Positions 9,698 to 27,371 of a stretch of 64,000 nt of DNA are shown here, in pieces. Each line of letters begins with the position of its first letter. Positions within the stretch are counted from its first letter, which is position 1. The notes below the pieces were generated by a model. It made no database searches. It was not told where the DNA came from and was given only the letters and a program-made list of their open reading frames with translations. The DNA is from Salinibacter pepae. GTDB lineage: Bacteria; Bacteroidota; Rhodothermia; Rhodothermales; Salinibacteraceae. The position numbers and the translations under genes are program-made. The stretch lies in assembly GCF_947077775.1 (NCBI RefSeq), contig NZ_CAMTTE010000001.1, forward strand, positions 3,314,501-3,378,500, given 5' to 3'.

Positions 9698-10000
9698 GCG
9701 AATTCGCGCCGGCCTGCTGACTTAGGCCGACACAGAATAGAAATAGGCATCCTTTAAATATGGAACCGCTTCCAAACTAGGAGTGCGCCCACATCTTTTT
9801 GTCAGAAACCGGTCAAGATTCAGCGACGAGTTCTGGAATGTACGGTACCTCTCCGTTGAACCGCCTGATAGAGCCCCCGACTGGACCGTGACGCGGACGA
9901 TGACGTCGGTGAAATTTCTGAAGGACCGGTCAAAACCCAACAGATGCGAGCGGATTCAATTCCTTTGTGACTCTTCTCTGCAAACAATCGCGATGCGGAC
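9698..10000. other. Intergenic region upstream of uvrB
   Basis: Divergent spacer of about 300 bases, AT-richer than the flanks. It contains two copies of ACCGGTCAA (9808-9816 and 9926-9934) and the string GTTCTGGAATGTACGGTACC beginning at 9830. No canonical LexA box of the CTGT-N8-ACAG or GAAC-N4-GTTC type is present. Confidence 0.4.
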
Positions 10001-19254: not shown

Positions 19255-20895
19255 TTAGTGTGCGTCCGGCCAGTCGGGGGTTGTGTGCACCGGAGTGCCC
19301 CCCAGATACGTCGCCACGACGTCCGTGTCCAGTAGATGGTCGGACGGCACCGTCATGAGGTCCTGAGAGAGTACCACGAAGTCGGCGCGTTTGCCTACGG
19401 ATATGGATCCGATCTCGCCCTCCTGAAACGCAGCGTACGCGGCGCCCTGGGTGTGGGCGTAAAGGGCCGTGGCGCGGGACAGCCGCTCGTCGGGCTGCCA
19501 GCCCCCGTTGGGCGCTCCGCCGGCGTCCCGGCGCGTGACGGCGGCGTAAAAGCCCCGGATCGGGTCGGGGGGCTCGACCGGCGCATCGGACCCGAAGGCG
19601 AGGCGGGCGCCCGCCTCCTGCAGGCTTCGCCACGCGTAGGCGTCGGTGAGTCGGTCTGGGCCGAGCCGCGCCGGGGCCCAGCCGTGATCGCTCGGCGCAA
19701 ATGCCGGCTGGACGGAGGCGATCACGCCGAGGCGGCCGAAGCGGGGGCGGTCGTCGGGGGCCACGACCTGGGCGTGTTCGATCCGAGGCCGGCGGAGCGG
19801 ACGGGTGCTCTCCCGGGCGACGTGTTCGTACGCGTCCAGCACCTGACGGTTGGCCCGGTCGCCGATGGCGTGGGTGTTGACCTGAAACCCACACTCGTGC
19901 GCCACCCGCACGTGCTCCCGGAACGCGTCGCTGTCGTGGAGAAGAAAGCCGCGGGTGCCCGGCGCATCGGCGTAGTCGTCAAGGAGGGCGGCGCCGCGGC
20001 TGCCGAGCGCGCCGTCGGCGAAGAACTTGACCGACTCCACGTCGAGGCGGCCGGACGCGTGGTGCAGCGGGCCCCGATCACAGAAATGCTCGAGCGTCTC
20101 CCCGCCCCCATTGATCATGGCGTACAGCCGGAGCGGGAAGCGATCCTCCTCAAGGAAGTCCTGAACCCGCTGGAGGGCCGAGAGCCCTACCCCGGCGTCG
20201 TGCAGGCTCGTGATGCCGCGTCGGGCAGTATGGCGGAGGGCGGCAGAGAGGGCGCGGTCCTGTTGTGTCTCGCTGGGGGGCGGGATGTGGTCCTCAACGA
20301 GGGCCATCGCGGCATCGATCAGCACGCCCGTAGGGGTGCCGGTGCGGTCGCGGTGGATGTGCCCGCCGCCGGGGTCGCTCATCTCGTAGAGGCGGTCGAG
20401 GCCCACGGTGGCCTCCAGGGCAGCCGTGTTGGCCCACCCGGCATGAACGTCCGTGCGCGTGAGCCAGACGGGACGCTCCGGAAACGCGGCATCCAGAACG
20501 TCACGGGTGGGGAGGCGAGCGGGCGTCCACTCGGTCTGGTCCCACCCGTGGCCCCGCAGCCACGTGGCGGACGGAGGGTCGTGCTCGGCGACGAATGCTT
20601 GGAGCTCTTCAACAACCGCGTCGGGAGAAGCGGCGGTGGTGAGGTCGGCCCGCCGAAGGGCCAGCCCGAGCTCTTGCAGGTGGGCGTGGGCGTCGACGAA
20701 GCCGGGCACGATGGTCCGTCCCTCGGCGTCAATGCGCCGGGCCTCCGGAACGGCCGTCGAGGCCTCTGCGGGCGAGCCCACCCCGGCAATACGGCCGTCG
20801 CGGACGGCCAGGGCCGAGGCGGGGACGGGCCCGCCATCACCGCCATTAACGGGGTACACGCGGGCATTCGTGATCAGGAACTCGGAAGGGGACAT
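19255..20895 (-). CDS. Amidohydrolase family protein, YtcJ-like
   Basis: 546 residues. Metal-dependent hydrolase of the amidohydrolase superfamily: an N-terminal beta-sandwich (ARVYPVNG, IAGVGSPAE), then FVDAHAHLQELG with the HxH metal motif, ARRGITSLHDAGVG, SVKFFADGALGSRGAALLDDYAD, the metal His in QVNTHAIGDRANRQVLDAYE, IEHAQVV, and RLAFGSDAPVEPPDP with the catalytic Asp. The C-terminus (IGSISVGKRADFVVLSQDLM) completes the sandwich. Relatives include YtcJ-like N-substituted formamide deformylases; the substrate here is unknown. No signal peptide. Its start faces gltB across the AT-rich inverted repeat, so both genes may share regulation. Confidence 0.92.
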   Translation of the reverse strand: MSPSEFLITNARVYPVNGGDGGPVPASALAVRDGRIAGVGSPAEASTAVPEARRIDAEGRTIVPGFVDAHAHLQELGLALRRADLTTAASPDAVVEELQAFVAEHDPPSATWLRGHGWDQTEWTPARLPTRDVLDAAFPERPVWLTRTDVHAGWANTAALEATVGLDRLYEMSDPGGGHIHRDRTGTPTGVLIDAAMALVEDHIPPPSETQQDRALSAALRHTARRGITSLHDAGVGLSALQRVQDFLEEDRFPLRLYAMINGGGETLEHFCDRGPLHHASGRLDVESVKFFADGALGSRGAALLDDYADAPGTRGFLLHDSDAFREHVRVAHECGFQVNTHAIGDRANRQVLDAYEHVARESTRPLRRPRIEHAQVVAPDDRPRFGRLGVIASVQPAFAPSDHGWAPARLGPDRLTDAYAWRSLQEAGARLAFGSDAPVEPPDPIRGFYAAVTRRDAGGAPNGGWQPDERLSRATALYAHTQGAAYAAFQEGEIGSISVGKRADFVVLSQDLMTVPSDHLLDTDVVATYLGGTPVHTTPDWPDAH

Positions 20896-20940: not shown

Positions 20941-21015
20941 AAATCAGGTGATTTTATGAAAGCGCTTTTCGTAAAGAACGGGTGACTGAAAGCGCTTTAC
21001 ACAAAATCATGATTT
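20941..21015. promoter_or_regulatory. Mirror-symmetric operator-like inverted repeat upstream of gltB
   Basis: In an AT-rich 200-base divergent spacer four palindromes are arranged symmetrically: AAATCA-GG-TGATTT (20941-20954), AAAGCGCTTT (20959-20968), AAAGCGCTTT (20989-20998) and AAATCATGATTT (21004-21015). The centres of outer and inner elements are 16 bases apart on both sides and all are symmetric about 20978.5. The arms form one inverted repeat of about 30 bases with small indels. A further pair, GTATCAAA (20920-20927) and TTTGATAC (21013-21020), flanks it. This looks like a multi-site operator for gltB, the amidohydrolase, or both. Confidence 0.75.
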
Positions 21016-21102
21016 GATACTCACAGTTCTTTCACTGACATAAAGATTCCCTTTACACGGAATATAAAAAAAGAGGCCGTTCCGGACGGCTGCCCGGTCC
21101 GC

Positions 21103-24100
21103 ATGGGCAGCTCCCATTGCGGCGCGACCCGCGACACGACCATGGGCTCCTCCCTCCCACCCCCATCCCTCGTGCCATCCCCAGACCGTCCGTCACTAGG
21201 CCCCCGGCGAGAGCGATCCAACTGTGGCGTCGGGGTCCTTATGGACCTCAACGGCACGAAGAGCCACGCAATGGTCGACGAGGCGCTCGGCCTGCTTCGC
21301 CGGCTGGACCACCGTGGGGCGCGCGGCGCCGAAGAAAACACGGGGGACGGGGCGGGTGTCCTGATTCAGAAGCCCCACGCGTTCTACCAAGACGTCGTGC
21401 CGCGCCTGGGTCCTGCGGACTCCTACGGGGTCGGCCAGTTTTTTCTCCCGACCGACAAGCACGTCCAATCGGCGCTCCGCGACTTCGTCGATCAGCAGGT
21501 ACGGGCCGAAGGCTTTGAATCTATTGCGTGGCGCTCTGTGCCGACCGACGCCTCCGACCTCGGCCCCACGGCCCGCGCCACGGAGCCCGACGTGTGGCAG
21601 CTCTTCGTCCGGCCCACCGAGTCGCTTTCGCCCGAGGCCCTGGACGCCCGGCTGTACGTCCTGCGTCGTCTCCTCGAATCGGCGGTGGCGAACAGCGGCT
21701 TCGACGACAATGAGACGTTCTACGTCTGTTCGTTGGATCGGCGCAGGGTGGTCTACAAGGGACTCCTGACCAATGCGCAGGTCGCCAGCTACTACCCGGA
21801 GCTGACCGACGATCGGGTGCAATCGACCCTGGCCCTCGTCCACTCGCGCTTCTCCACGAACACGCTGGGCGCGTGGCGGCTCGCCCACCCCTACCGCACC
21901 GTCGTCCACAATGGAGAGGTCAATACGCTCCGTGGCAACTTCAACTGGATGCGGGCCCGGGCGGCAGACCTGCACACCGACGCCTTTGGGGAGGACCTGG
22001 AGCGAATCCGGCCCATCACCACGGCGGCGCAGAGCGATACGGCGGTGCTCGACAATGTCCTGGAGCTGCTCGTGGAGAGCGGCCGCTCCCTGCCCCACGC
22101 CCTGCGGATGCTCATCCCGGAGGCCTGGACCAAGGACGCCCGCATGAGCGCGGCCCGGCGGGCCTGGTACGAGTACCATTCGACCCTCATCGAGCCCTGG
22201 GACGGGCCGCTCCTCGTGGCCTTTACCGACGGGGACAGCGTGGGGGCAGTGCTCGACCGCAACGGCCTGCGGCCGTGCCGCTACTGGGTCACCCACGACG
22301 ACCGGATCGTGATGGCCAGCGAAGCGGGCGTCGTGGACCTGCCGCCCGACCGGGTGGCCCGGAAGGACCGCCTCCAGCCCGGCCAGCTTTTCCTCGCGGA
22401 CGCGGCGGCGGAGCGCATTGTGCCGGAGGACGAGGTGTTCGGGCGACTGACCGACGAAAAGTACGGGCGGTGGCTCGGCGAGGCGCGCGTGCGGCTCCGC
22501 ACACTGGTGTCCGCCGATCCGTCCTCGGGCGGTGCGATGGCGTCAGGGGCGCCAGGCTCCCTGGACGGAGAGTCGGATGCCGTGCCCCGGCGACAGCGGG
22601 CCTTCGGCTACACGCGGGAGCACGTCCGGCGCCTCGTGCAGCCGATGGTAGACGACGGCACGGACCCGGTGGGCGCGATGGGCAACGACACCCCGCCCGC
22701 CGTGCTCTCGGACCAGAGCAAGACGCTCTTTACCTACTTTAAGCAGCTGTTTGCGCAGGTCTCCAATCCGCCCCTCGACTACATCCGCGAGGAGCTGGTC
22801 ACCTCGCTCGAAAGCCACATCGGGCGCAAGGGCAACCTGCTGACGGAGGGCCCCGAGCACTGCCGACAGGTGCACCTCAACTCGCCCCTCCTGAGCGACG
22901 CGGAGCGGGATGCCCTTCACGACATCGACACGAACGGCATCCGGTCGACAACGATCGACACGACGTTCGGGGATGAGACCGGCCTGGAGGCCGCCGTCGA
23001 GCAGATGTGTCGGGACGCGCGGGAGGCCGTAGCGGCGGGCGACGAAATTCTCCTCCTGTCGGACCGCGGCACGGGGCCGGATCGCCTCCCAATCCCGAGT
23101 TTGCTCGCCGTGGGGGCCGTGCACCACGACCTGATTCGGGCGGGCCGCCGGACGCACGCGGCGCTCGTGGTCGAAAGCGGGCAGCCCTGTGCGGTGCATC
23201 ACGTCTGTACGCTCCTGGGCTACGGGGCCGACGCCATACATCCTTATCTGGCCTACGCCACTGTGCGCGACTGGGCGGGGCGCAGCGACGCGGTCCCCGA
23301 CGCCGAAACGGCCATCGAGCGATACGTCGGGGCCCTCGAACAGGGCCTGCTCAAAGTGATGGCCAAAATGGGCATCTCCACCCTCGAAAGCTACAAGGGG
23401 GCGCAGGTCTTCGAGGCGGTTGGCCTCGACTCGGAATTTGTAGAAACGTACTTCTGCGGCACTCCCTCACGAATTGAGGGGGCGGGCATCGACGAGCTGG
23501 AGGCCGACCTGCGCGATCGTCACGAGAAGGCGTTTGGGAACGCGTTGCCGGGCGCGACGGACCTGGAGAGCGGGGGCGAGCTGTACTGGCGACGGGATGG
23601 GGAGCACCATCAGTGGAACCCGCAGACGATCGGCAGGCTCCAACATGCGGTGCGGCAAAACGACCGCGCGAGCTACGACCAGTTTGCGGCCCTCGTGAAC
23701 GAGCAGGCGAACCGCCATCAGACGCTCCGGGGCCTGCTCGACTTCGACACGGACCCCGACGGGGCCATTCCGCTCTCCGAGGTGGAGCCCGCCGAGTCCA
23801 TCGTCCAGCGCTTCTTCACGGCCTCCATGTCGTTTGGCTCCCTCAGTCCGGAGGCCCACGAGACGCTCGCCGTCGCGATGAATCGGATTGGCGGGCGGGC
23901 CAGCACCGGCGAGGGCGGCGAGCAGGTCGACCGCTTCGGCACCGAGCGCGAATGTGCGATCAAGCAGGTGGCCAGTGGGCGCTTCGGGGTGACGAGCACC
24001 TACCTCAACAGTGCCGACGCCATCGAAATCAAGATGGCGCAGGGCTCGAAGCCGGGGGAGGGCGGCCACCTGCCGGGGGAGAAGGTCAACGACCTCATCG

Positions 24101-25716
24101 CCGAGACGCGCTACACGACCCCGGGGGTGTCGCTCATTTCGCCGCCGCCCCACCACGACATTTACTCGATTGAGGACCTCGCGCAGCTCATCCACGACCT
24201 CAAGAGCGCCAACTCGGCGGCGGACATGCACGTGAAGCTCGTGGCGGCGGCCGGCATTGGGGTCATCGCCGCGGGCGTGTCCAAGGCGAAGGCCGATGCC
24301 CTCCTCATCAGCGGACAGTCCGGCGGGACGGGCGCGTCGCCGAAGACCTCCATCAAGTCGGCGGGCCTCCCGTGGGAGCTGGGCGTGTCGGAGGCGCAGC
24401 AGGTGCTTCTCGAAAACAACCTCCGCTCCCGCATCCGCCTCCGGGTGGACGGCGGCCTCAAAACCGGGCGGGACGTGGCCGTGGCGGCGTTGTTGGGAGG
24501 CGAAGAATTTGGCTTTGGCACCGCGGCCCTCGTCTGTCTGGGGTGCATTATGCTGCGGAAGTGTCACTGCAACACCTGCTCGGTGGGCATCGCCACGCAG
24601 GACCCGGAGTTGCGCGAGCAGTTCGTGGGCGAGCCCGAGCACGTGATGCGCTACATGCACTTTGTGGCGGAGGAGCTGCGCGAGATCATGGCGGATCTTG
24701 GGGTGCGCACCGTTGACGAGATGGTGGGGCGTACCGACTTGCTTCGGCAGCGAGACACTGACCCCCCGAAGGCCCGTCGGCTGGACCTGGGATCGATTTT
24801 GCACCGCCCGGCCAGCGACGACGATCCGCGGAAGACGACAGAACAGGACCACAAGCTGGACGACAAGTTGGACCACGCCCTCATCGAAGAGGCCCGCCCG
24901 GCCCTCGATCAGCAAACCCCGGTCCAGATTGCCCACGACGTTCACAACTGGGACCGGGCAGTCGGGGCCATGATCAGTGCCGAGGTGACCGGTCGCTACG
25001 GGCCGGACGGGCTCCCCGACGGCACCATCGAGATCGATCTGGAGGGGGGGGCGGGGCAGAGCTTTGGGGCCTTCCTGGCCTCCGGGGTGACCCTGCGGCT
25101 CGTGGGAGAGGCCAACGACTACGTCGGGAAAGGCCTGTCCGGGGGCCGGATCATTCTGCGCACCCCAGAGACGGCGGGCTTCGAGGCGGACGAGAACATC
25201 ATCCTGGGCAACGTGGCCCTCTACGGCGCAACCCGGGGGGAGGCGTACGTCAACGGCCAGGCCGGTGAGCGCTTTGCGGTCCGCAACTCCGGCGTACAGG
25301 CGGTCGTGGAGGGCGTGGGCGACCACGGGTGCGAGTACATGACCGGCGGTGTGGTCGTCGTGCTTGGAGGCACAGGCCGCAACTTCGGGGCGGGCATGAG
25401 TGGGGGGGAGGCGTACGTGCTCGACGAGGACGGGACCTTCGAGGACACGGTCAACCGCGGGATGGTGTACGTTGAGGCGCTGTCCGACGAGCGGGACCGC
25501 CGCCTCGTTCGCCGCCTCGTGGAGCACCACCTGCACCACACGGGCAGCGCCAAGGCGGCCCGCGTGCTGGACGCGTGGGACACGCGCGTCGACCAGTTTC
25601 GCAAGGCCATGCCCGACGCCTTTGCCCGACAGGTGGAGGCCCATTTGGAGAACGGGGAGGACATCCGGCCCTCCGTGCCGCCCGCACCGGGGGCCTCCTC
25701 CACTGTTTTGGCCTAG
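21103..25716 (+). CDS. gltB: Glutamate synthase large subunit
   Basis: 1537 residues. GltB makes glutamate from 2-oxoglutarate and glutamine-derived ammonia. After a leader of about 40 residues comes NCGVGVLMD, with the Ntn-type glutaminase Cys that becomes N-terminal after propeptide removal, then [20 protein letters not shown]. Later blocks are [14 protein letters not shown], the FMN domain with [62 protein letters not shown], the 3Fe-4S cysteines in [17 protein letters not shown], and the C-terminal beta-helix with [11 protein letters not shown]. The ATG at 21142 is an alternative start that still keeps a propeptide. gltD follows 176 bases later. Confidence 0.97.
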   Translation: [1537 protein letters not shown]

Positions 25717-25892: not shown

Positions 25893-27371
25893 ATGCCCCG
25901 CGAACATCACCCCGACGGATACCGGAAGCACCCGCGCCGTCCCATCGGCAAGCGGCCGGCCCCCGAGCGCACGGCCGACTTTCGCGAAATTTGGGCGCCG
26001 GAGTGGAGCCCCGAGGCCCTGCAGGATCAGGGCGAGCGCTGTGTCGACTGCGGCGTGCCTACCTGCATGAGCGGCTGCCCCATCGGCAACCGCATCCCGG
26101 AATGGAACGACCTCGTCCACAAGGCGGACTGGAAGGAGGCCCTGCGGCAGCTCCACGCCACAAACAACTTTCCGGAGTTTACGGGCTACACGTGCCCGGC
26201 CCCGTGCGAGGACGCCTGTGTCCTGGCCGTCAACGACGATGCCGTGGCCATCAAGAGCATCGAGCGGGCCATCGTGGACAAGGGGTGGGAGGAGGGCTGG
26301 ATTCAGCCGGAGCCGCCGGCCGAGCGGACGGGCTTTCGGGTGGCCGTGGTGGGGAGCGGGCCGGCCGGCCTTGCCGCCGCGCAACAGCTCAATCGGGCCG
26401 GCCACCGCGTGACGGTCTACGAGCGGGACGACGCCCTCGGCGGCCTCATGACGTACGGCATTCCGGACTTCAAATTCGCGAAGCGGCGGGTCGACCAGCG
26501 GATCGATCAGCTCCGGCAGGAGGGCATCACGTTCGAGATGAGCACGGAGGTCGGGACCGACCTCGCGGCGGATCGGCTCCACGACGCGTACGACGCCACC
26601 TGCCTCGCCCTCGGTGCCCAGAAGCACCGCGAGCTTCCGGTGCCGGGCACCGACCTGGACGGCGTACGGCCGGCCATGGAGTTCCTCCCGCAGGAAAACC
26701 GTCGCCAGCAAGGCCAGGCCGCCCCCGGCGGGGGCACGGCCGCCCATAAGAACGTCGTCGTGTTAGGGGGTGGGAGCACCGGGGCCGACTGCGTCGCCAC
26801 GGCCCACCGGCAGGGCGCGAAGCAGGTCGTCCAGATCGGCATCAACGAGCGCGGCCCGACTGAGCGGACGGCGGACAACCCCTGGCCGGAGGCCGCGCAG
26901 GTGTACACCAAGACCTACGCGCAGGAGGAGGGCGGGGCGCAGGAGTTTGCGGTCAATACCCAGGCGCTGGTCGACCTCGACGGCGACGGCCGCGTCGACG
27001 AGCTGCGGGCCGAGCGCGTGGACTGGACCTACGAAAATGGCGCCCGCGCCGACAAGACGGTCGTGGACCCCGACGTTCGGGTGCCGGCCGACCTCGTCCT
27101 CGTGGTCATCGGGTTCGTGGGGCCGGAGCGCAATCCGTTTGTAGACCTCGGCGTCCGGCAGGCCGACGACGGCACGGTCGCGACCGACGACCGCCTCATG
27201 ACCGATGTCGAGGGCGTCTTCGCCGCGGGGGACGCCCGGATGGGGGCCTCGCTCGTCGTGTGGGCCATTGGGGAGGGGCGCGATGCGGCCCGCCAGGTCG
27301 ACCGGTACCTTACCGGCGATACAGCGCTTCCGGCGAGCCTCCAGACCGCCAACCCGCCGCTCGGGCGGTAG
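25893..27371 (+). CDS. gltD: Glutamate synthase small subunit
   Basis: 492 residues. GltD is the FAD- and NAD(P)H-binding subunit that feeds electrons to GltB. The N-terminal Cys-rich region for 4Fe-4S clusters is visible: CVDCGVPTCMSGCPIGN and YTCPAPCEDACVLAV. Then follow the FAD-binding VVGSGPAGLAAAQQL, YERDDALGGLMTYGIPDFK, the NAD(P)H-binding VLGGGSTGADCVATA and the C-terminal FAD contact VFAAGDARMGASLVVWAIGEGR. About 20 residues around 265-285 (QQGQAAPGGGTAAHK) form a local insertion. It follows gltB on the same strand with a 176-base spacer that contains an inverted repeat. Confidence 0.96.
   Translation: MPREHHPDGYRKHPRRPIGKRPAPERTADFREIWAPEWSPEALQDQGERCVDCGVPTCMSGCPIGNRIPEWNDLVHKADWKEALRQLHATNNFPEFTGYTCPAPCEDACVLAVNDDAVAIKSIERAIVDKGWEEGWIQPEPPAERTGFRVAVVGSGPAGLAAAQQLNRAGHRVTVYERDDALGGLMTYGIPDFKFAKRRVDQRIDQLRQEGITFEMSTEVGTDLAADRLHDAYDATCLALGAQKHRELPVPGTDLDGVRPAMEFLPQENRRQQGQAAPGGGTAAHKNVVVLGGGSTGADCVATAHRQGAKQVVQIGINERGPTERTADNPWPEAAQVYTKTYAQEEGGAQEFAVNTQALVDLDGDGRVDELRAERVDWTYENGARADKTVVDPDVRVPADLVLVVIGFVGPERNPFVDLGVRQADDGTVATDDRLMTDVEGVFAAGDARMGASLVVWAIGEGRDAARQVDRYLTGDTALPASLQTANPPLGR

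Follow-up and report, generated by a model that had tools for sequence, protein, structure and literature searches.

Candidate tandem LacI/GalR-type operators upstream of gltB in Salinibacter pepae and a possible link to carbon-nitrogen control

Among LacI-family regulators, a central CG in the operator is described for 1173 regulators and an even palindrome for 1251 of 1303, with peaks in the distance between neighboring sites at 13, 22, and 32 bp (PMC4052901). By the recognition rules described for the family, R20 is associated with G at NT-6 and A51/L54 with the central CG (PMC2978694). One member, CcpA of Firmicutes, uses cre boxes upstream of the -35 element to activate ackA, pta, and ilvB, in a manner that depends on the face of the helix, and its activation of ackA needs an extra conserved upstream sequence (both as described in PMC3463425). 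Here, we analyze a 64,000-nucleotide stretch of the Salinibacter pepae genome (contig NZ_CAMTTE010000001.1, positions 3,314,501 to 3,378,500; henceforth "the window"), in which the intergenic stretch in front of gltB carries two copies of an even palindrome with a central CG, as in operators of the LacI/GalR type.

The gltB promoter region

An earlier note on this DNA had described a mirror-symmetric element of four palindromes in an AT-rich island. The geometry is real (Table 1): the palindromes are centered at 20947.5, 20963.5, 20993.5, and 21009.5 (read from the letters), such that the outer and the inner pair share the midpoint 20978.5 with 16 bp from outer to inner palindrome on each side, and the 246-base intergenic stretch has a GC content of 48.4% versus 66.7% for the window. 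The note's further claim, that such order is unlikely by chance, holds for the repeated inner palindrome only. None of 2000 dinucleotide shuffles of the stretch contains one 10-nt palindrome twice, the inner palindrome is matched four times with at most one mismatch in the whole window (0.74 expected), and two of the six copies of AAAGCGCTTT in the 3.63-Mb genome are those at gltB. By contrast, 116 of 2000 shuffles of the intergenic stretch contain at least two 6+6 palindromes like the outer ones. Mirror symmetry, moreover, comes with any palindrome that is present twice, and the symmetry seen here thus amounts to a single coincidence, namely the equal 16-bp offsets. A mobile-element remnant, which the note had named as an origin of the repeat that would refute its reading, is rejected, as copies elsewhere in the genome were not found: when the genome was searched with the intergenic stretch, the other 13 matches were just 14–24 bases long (best E 0.35), and no second copy was seen.

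Table 1. Features of the gltB promoter region and neighboring genes (window positions)
Feature	Sequence	Position	Strand	Remarks
Amidohydrolase (Amidohydro_3), facing gene		19255-20895	-	
Left outer palindrome	AAATCAGGTGATTT	20941-20954	none	Probably accidental; exact in 2 of 9 same-family loci only (own locus L013 and L014)
Left operator (putative)	TGAAAGCGCTTTTC	20957-20970		Core palindrome AAAGCGCTTT at 20959-20968; AAGCGCTT core intact in 7 of the family's 9 gltB loci
Conserved spacer	GTAAAGAACGGGTGAC	20971-20986	+	May be a third element, ahead of the right operator
Right operator (putative)	TGAAAGCGCTTTAC	20987-21000		Core AAAGCGCTTT at 20989-20998; best conserved part; all 9 gltB loci of the family have AAGCGCTT without mismatch
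Right outer palindrome	AAATCATGATTT	21004-21015	none	Probably accidental; overlaps TTGATA; exact in 1 of 9 (own locus)
Putative -35 of gltB	TTGATA	21014-21019	+	Predicted
Putative -10 of gltB	CATAAA	21039-21044	+	Predicted; weak match; 19-bp spacer to -35
gltB, glutamate synthase large subunit		21142-25716	+	NF008730, 1638 bits (cut-off 1047)
Probable gltD, glutamate synthase small subunit		25893-27371	+	Fer4_20 and Pyr_redox_2; name from place after gltB

To compare the region among relatives, 29 gltB loci were examined (37 matches gave 30 loci, one of which, L018, ends at a contig edge). In seven of the nine loci from the same family both inner cores are exact and lie 30–31 bp apart; absence of the motifs at gltB in close relatives, which the note had named as a refuting finding, is thus seen for the outer pair and not for the inner pair. 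Among the 20 loci from other families, three (L027, L034, and L036) have paired sites 30 bp apart, each core with a single mismatch, three (L039, L040, and L042) have a single imperfect site, and a convincing site is missing from the remaining 14 upstream regions, one of which (L025) has an isolated exact core at -499. Judged by this conservation, the inner palindromes look like switch sites before gltB, and the outer palindromes are probably accidental and not part of the system. The link to nitrogen control drawn in the earlier note is supported in that the inner sites lie in the gltB promoter region, are kept in the family, and resemble sites before other nitrogen-assimilation genes (see below). 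Its second proposed target, the facing amidohydrolase gene, finds no support: the right site stays in L020 and L022, neither of which shows an amidohydrolase as neighbor, and L021, which does have one beside gltB, is without the left site.

The gltB open reading frame opens at 21103, and the ATG at 21142 was chosen as the presumed start by comparison with relatives. Upstream of it, TTTGATA is present in seven of the nine same-family loci (TTTGATG in L021, absent in L022), and the conserved TTGATA overlapping the right outer palindrome is probably the -35 element; the relatives' version of the putative -10 reads TATAAC, AATAGT, or AATAAT. From the putative -35 to the operator centers, the distance is 20 bp (right) and 50 bp (left). 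A third element in the 16-base spacer between the operators is possible because the spacer pattern outlasts the left palindrome in two loci: GTnAAnAA and the T(G/T)A.T part are kept in L020 and L021, both of which lack the left operator. Consensus patterns of other known promoter and regulator sites were compared with the intergenic stretch. A sigma-54/NtrC promoter was rejected (best matches to TGGCAC-N5-TTGCW and to the NtrC pattern with 4/11 and 5/12 mismatches), the TnrA, NtcA, FNR, and CRP patterns find no good match, and the cre pattern fits best relative to its length, with two of nine fixed positions mismatched.

As for gltB itself, the N terminus of the protein (window 21241-21840) is 47%–50% identical to haloarchaeal GltB (Haloferax, Halolamina, and Halorarius) and only 35%–45% identical to GltB from other families of the same order (different programs gave the two ranges); an exchange of gltB with haloarchaea is possible on this evidence.

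Inner-type sites at nitrogen and carbon genes

We scored upstream regions with the degenerate site [TC]G[GA]AANCGNTT[CT]C[AG], which has 12 fixed positions and was fixed only once sites had been seen, using the same motif with a GC core as control. At a threshold of at least 11/12, a site is present in 22 of 30 amtB loci (control 2; 30 examined of 39 matches), 27 of 50 gdh loci (control 2), 29 of 70 lrp(-glnA) loci (control 4; 70 of 127 listed places), and 7 of 29 gltB loci (control 0). The gdh sample consists of 30 loci, among which the count is 15 versus 1, and 20 hand-chosen by place; exact cores are found in 8 of the 30 and 14 of the 20, the latter count being biased because at least five loci (L230 and L232-L235) were picked after the site had been seen. 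At lrp, the counts are 18 versus 0 of 24 in the same family and 11 versus 4 of 46 in the others. Of the 30 ammonium transporter loci, 15 have an exact core, located 169–291 bp ahead of the start of the domain. In S. pepae itself, amtB has a pair of sites 21 bp apart with one core mismatch each, lrp-glnA has a pair 41 bp apart before a predicted TTGACA-17-TAACGT promoter, and a second gdh (glutamate dehydrogenase by a gene piece below cut-off) has the site TGGAAGCGCTTGCG.

The two gltB sites of the window score 10/12. At this threshold the separation is poor, with 9 versus 5 of 9 same-family gltB loci, 27 versus 14 of 30 amtB loci, and 18 versus 8 of 30 even in a control stretch inside the lrp-glnA operon, and the window's sites therefore rest on conservation rather than on score. 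Across 119 genomes, GGAAGCGCTTCC is found 330 times versus 106 for the backwards pattern (more in 81 genomes, fewer in 11). In the S. pepae genome as a whole AAGCGCTT is not over-represented (65 versus 63), and in the window motifs scoring at least 11 are rarer than the control (2 versus 7). In family f14, good sites are missing from gltB, gdh, and lrp, though two of the three f14 genomes searched keep the LacI protein discussed below. The region directly before glnA, with an exact core within 1000 bp in 1 of 30 loci, resembled a negative control at first sight, but the lrp gene lies between the promoter and glnA. Pairs of the form AAGCGCTT-N19-26-AAGCGCTT are present in 23 of 119 genomes (control 1); pairing alone is nevertheless an unreliable marker because several paired loci other than gltB and amtB are unrelated genes or coding sequence. 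Three loci from families f10 and f13 (L066, L068, and L069) carry two copies of AAGCGCTT 30 bp apart, separated by a spacer that contains GTTAAG or GATTAA, and L068 and L069 have a small open reading frame of 61 or 71 aa nearby. Within the window, an intergenic perfect match, TGGAACCGCTTCCA (12/12), lies at 9761-9774, 227 bp before uvrB (10001, + strand), and is possibly another target site, for uvrB and perhaps for the opposite-strand gene.

In 68 one-mismatch cores with fitting flanks, 40 changes lie beside the CpG and only 8 in it, the tolerance expected for LacI-type operators. Many amtB, gdh, and lrp sites have a G at NT-6 in both halves, whereas the window's gltB sites have it in the left halves only. 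Paired sites are spaced near helical turns, that is, 30–31 bp at gltB, 21 bp at amtB, 41–43 bp at lrp-glnA, and ∼20 bp at lrp of family f4, with 28 bp at amtB in two f13 genomes as the exception. A fixed central CpG, tolerant flanks, and pair spacings near whole turns are LacI/GalR traits. Distances from site center to predicted -35 are often 19–21, 31, or 41–42 bp at amtB and 50–51 together with 91–94 bp at same-family lrp-glnA; exceptions at amtB and lrp are 33–34, 38–39, 55, 62–63, 76, 79, 83, and 103–104 bp, and the gdh distances range from 10 to 128 bp with no order. When distances to predicted promoters are collapsed by gene and family, phasing at 10.5 bp gives R 0.63 (p ∼0.004, n = 14), to be set against altered-core controls that give p values of 0.15 (GC), 0.016 (GG), and 0.011 (CC) and re-find many of the same sites.

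Sites of this kind are also seen at carbon and amino-acid genes. Of the 65 AAGCGCTT sites counted in the S. pepae genome, some of those listed, up to position 2854379, also precede pckA, pfk (phosphofructokinase), ilvB (acetolactate synthase), argG, tyrA (prephenate dehydrogenase), and glpK (glycerol kinase cluster), where the names pckA, argG, tyrA, and ilvB come from gene pieces scoring under whole-protein cut-offs and pfk and glpK pass one; five listed sites (248349, 414024, 496604, 713738, and 791000) were viewed as context only. The site lies 60 bp (pckA) and 144 bp (pfk) from the start codon, and 574 bp (ilvB) and 306 bp (argG) upstream. The glycerol kinase and ABC transport cluster at G000:C1:134500-147500 (L166) has four AAGCGCTT sites, two of which precede CTATACT, a -10-like box. 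At G000:C1:2364500-2376500 (L165), a LacI regulator adjoins a receptor-like gene (by eye) and is flanked by TGTAAGCGCTTACG and TGTAAGCGCTTTCT sites.

A candidate regulator, a proposed mechanism, and rival readings

Four LacI-family genes were found in the S. pepae genome, one of which (G000:C1:95683-96720) lies between a thiD-like gene (below cut-off) and purC. Among the matches listed, 54 of 60 genomes have one to this candidate that reaches at least 300 bits; five of the six genomes without it are 62%–83% complete and one (G039) is 97% complete. The motif ISTVSR is kept in all 28 candidate loci that could be parsed (out of 30, with L195 and L197 left out), mostly adjoining a purC-like gene (by eye). 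With hinge and helix positions numbered as we presume from GalR, the candidate shows TVSR plus A and L at the hinge places, and its recognition helix is common to two of the four LacI genes of the genome. The fold of the candidate is evident from its sequence, the best solved-structure match is CcpA, and the NCBIfam scores are 191 bits for RbsR, 181 for CytR, 175 for PurR, and 155.3 for CcpA, all below cut-off; because RbsR, CytR, and PurR outscore CcpA and none reaches its cut-off, the candidate is not filed as CcpA, for which the TIGR01481 cut-off is 442.35. The candidate's own 400-bp upstream region lacks any core with at most one mismatch in 18 of the 28 loci; a single locus has an exact one. 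We favor the purC-linked LacI regulator as the protein acting on the sites.

Taken together, these data lead us to propose, with moderate confidence, that the inner palindromes are tandem LacI/GalR-type operators upstream of the gltB -35 element that are mainly activating, with the purC-linked LacI protein as the favored regulator and with no part played by the outer palindromes. One LacI-type dimer would occupy each site. At gltB, amtB, and lrp-glnA, the dimer would sit upstream of the -35 element, on the polymerase face, and mainly activate; at gltB the right site lies ∼57 bp upstream of the predicted start point. A second dimer, bound at the left site, would assist activation by the dimer at the right site, neighboring dimers presumably binding cooperatively, while the conserved spacer may hold a site for a helper factor. 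Given the CcpA precedent and the phased sites upstream of -35 elements, activation by a LacI-type dimer is therefore favored. The purC-linked LacI protein would in this way tie the synthesis of glutamate and the uptake of ammonium to carbon status.

Most LacI-family members repress, and the gltB sites could do likewise, as a roadblock or by looping between the operators. Looping would suit tandem pairs, the short distances from site to start codon at pckA (60 bp) and pfk (144 bp) point the same way, and repression is stated as usual for CcpA (PMC3463425); we nonetheless consider repression of gltB rather unlikely, as the gltB, amtB, and lrp sites lie mostly upstream of the predicted -35, near fixed helical phases.

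It is improbable, in our estimate, that the sites are instead those of the Lrp/AsnC protein whose gene immediately precedes glnA, acting as an autoregulated nitrogen regulator. Lrp proteins use phased sites and act on gltBD in E. coli, and the same-family lrp-glnA promoter carries a site, often a pair, but a central CpG that does not vary, next to bases that are free to change, is a trait of LacI-type sites, and the best match to the E. coli Lrp consensus has 4/15 mismatches (other Lrp members may bind other motifs). The lrp gene (L265:591-1085, G000:C1:2406391-2406885) is found at 47%–100% identity in 111 of 119 relatives, a 112th match (G113, 31% identity) being probably a paralogue; however, although Lrp is near-universal, a site scoring at least 11 is present upstream of lrp in just 11 of 46 loci outside the family (control 4). 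Among the 56 genomes with both genes listed, 53 have lrp immediately ahead of a glutamine synthetase match on one contig, whereas the two are on separate contigs in G040, G050, and G059, all from family f15. The glutamine synthetase matches that lrp adjoins are of two very different strengths, strong (type I) and weak (probably type III).

We give equally little credence to the idea that the sites are of the LacI type but serve another family member. Two come into question: the second copy (G000:C1:639570-640559) and the regulator of the sugar cluster, which has a TGTAAGCGCTTACG site of its own. The second copy is 53% identical to the purC-linked protein and has the same recognition helix, but among the matches listed, second copies (at least 270 bits) appear in 7 of 60 genomes. 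The site upstream of the sugar regulator shares the AAGCGCTT core, and gltB of L022 has TGTAAGCGCTTACA; against this, the sugar regulator's site has T-A outside the core versus G-A or A-A in most nitrogen sites, and the protein has T15 A16, positions that we again number on the assumption of a GalR-like layout. An integrase-like open reading frame (by eye) is located a few kb from the second LacI gene. Finally, the reading of the earlier note, in which all four palindromes form one element that serves a tetramer or a pair of unlike dimers and also controls the amidohydrolase, has its geometry present in the window but is highly improbable, since the outer pair is not conserved, its right member overlaps the conserved TTGATA, and the sites do not follow the amidohydrolase.

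Comparison with known systems

Beyond gltB, we tentatively suggest that in the Salinibacter-like order a LacI/GalR protein serves as a master carbon-nitrogen regulator, with a single operator grammar of helically phased TGGAANCGNTTCCA sites, alone or in pairs, that would switch on ammonium uptake together with glutamate synthase, glutamate dehydrogenase, and glutamine synthetase and would further touch gluconeogenesis, glycolysis, and amino-acid synthesis, that is, work done elsewhere by NtrC, TnrA/GlnR, or NtcA. Such operators are known; their use for the nitrogen-assimilation set in this order appears to be undescribed, and no description of nitrogen-assimilation control in Salinibacter-like bacteria or of this regulon was found in the open-licence full-text literature. 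If the suggestion is true, a protein of the sugar-repressor type ties nitrogen uptake directly to carbon status, and both a motif and a named candidate gene are now on offer.

CebR of Streptomyces has a similar motif, TGGGAGCGCTCCCA, with listed variants such as TGGAAGCGCTTCCA, but is a repressor of cellulose utilization with other targets in another phylum (PMC5332605). FruR/Cra, PckR, GapR, GluR, and PurR are likewise LacI proteins that act as global regulators of central metabolism, PurR touches nitrogen assimilation too, and global LacI regulators have tandem sites at helical multiples; their target sets differ from the one proposed here, and the main text of the source does not contain the words Bacteroidetes or Salinibacter (PMC4052901). 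The CcpA/cre system of Firmicutes resembles the present one in its 14-bp palindrome with a central CpG, in sites upstream of the -35 element, and in the extra upstream sequence at ackA, which may be compared with the conserved spacer at gltB (PMC3463425). It differs in that the window's sites deviate from cre at two of nine fixed positions and in that the set of genes here includes amtB, gdh, gltB, and lrp-glnA.
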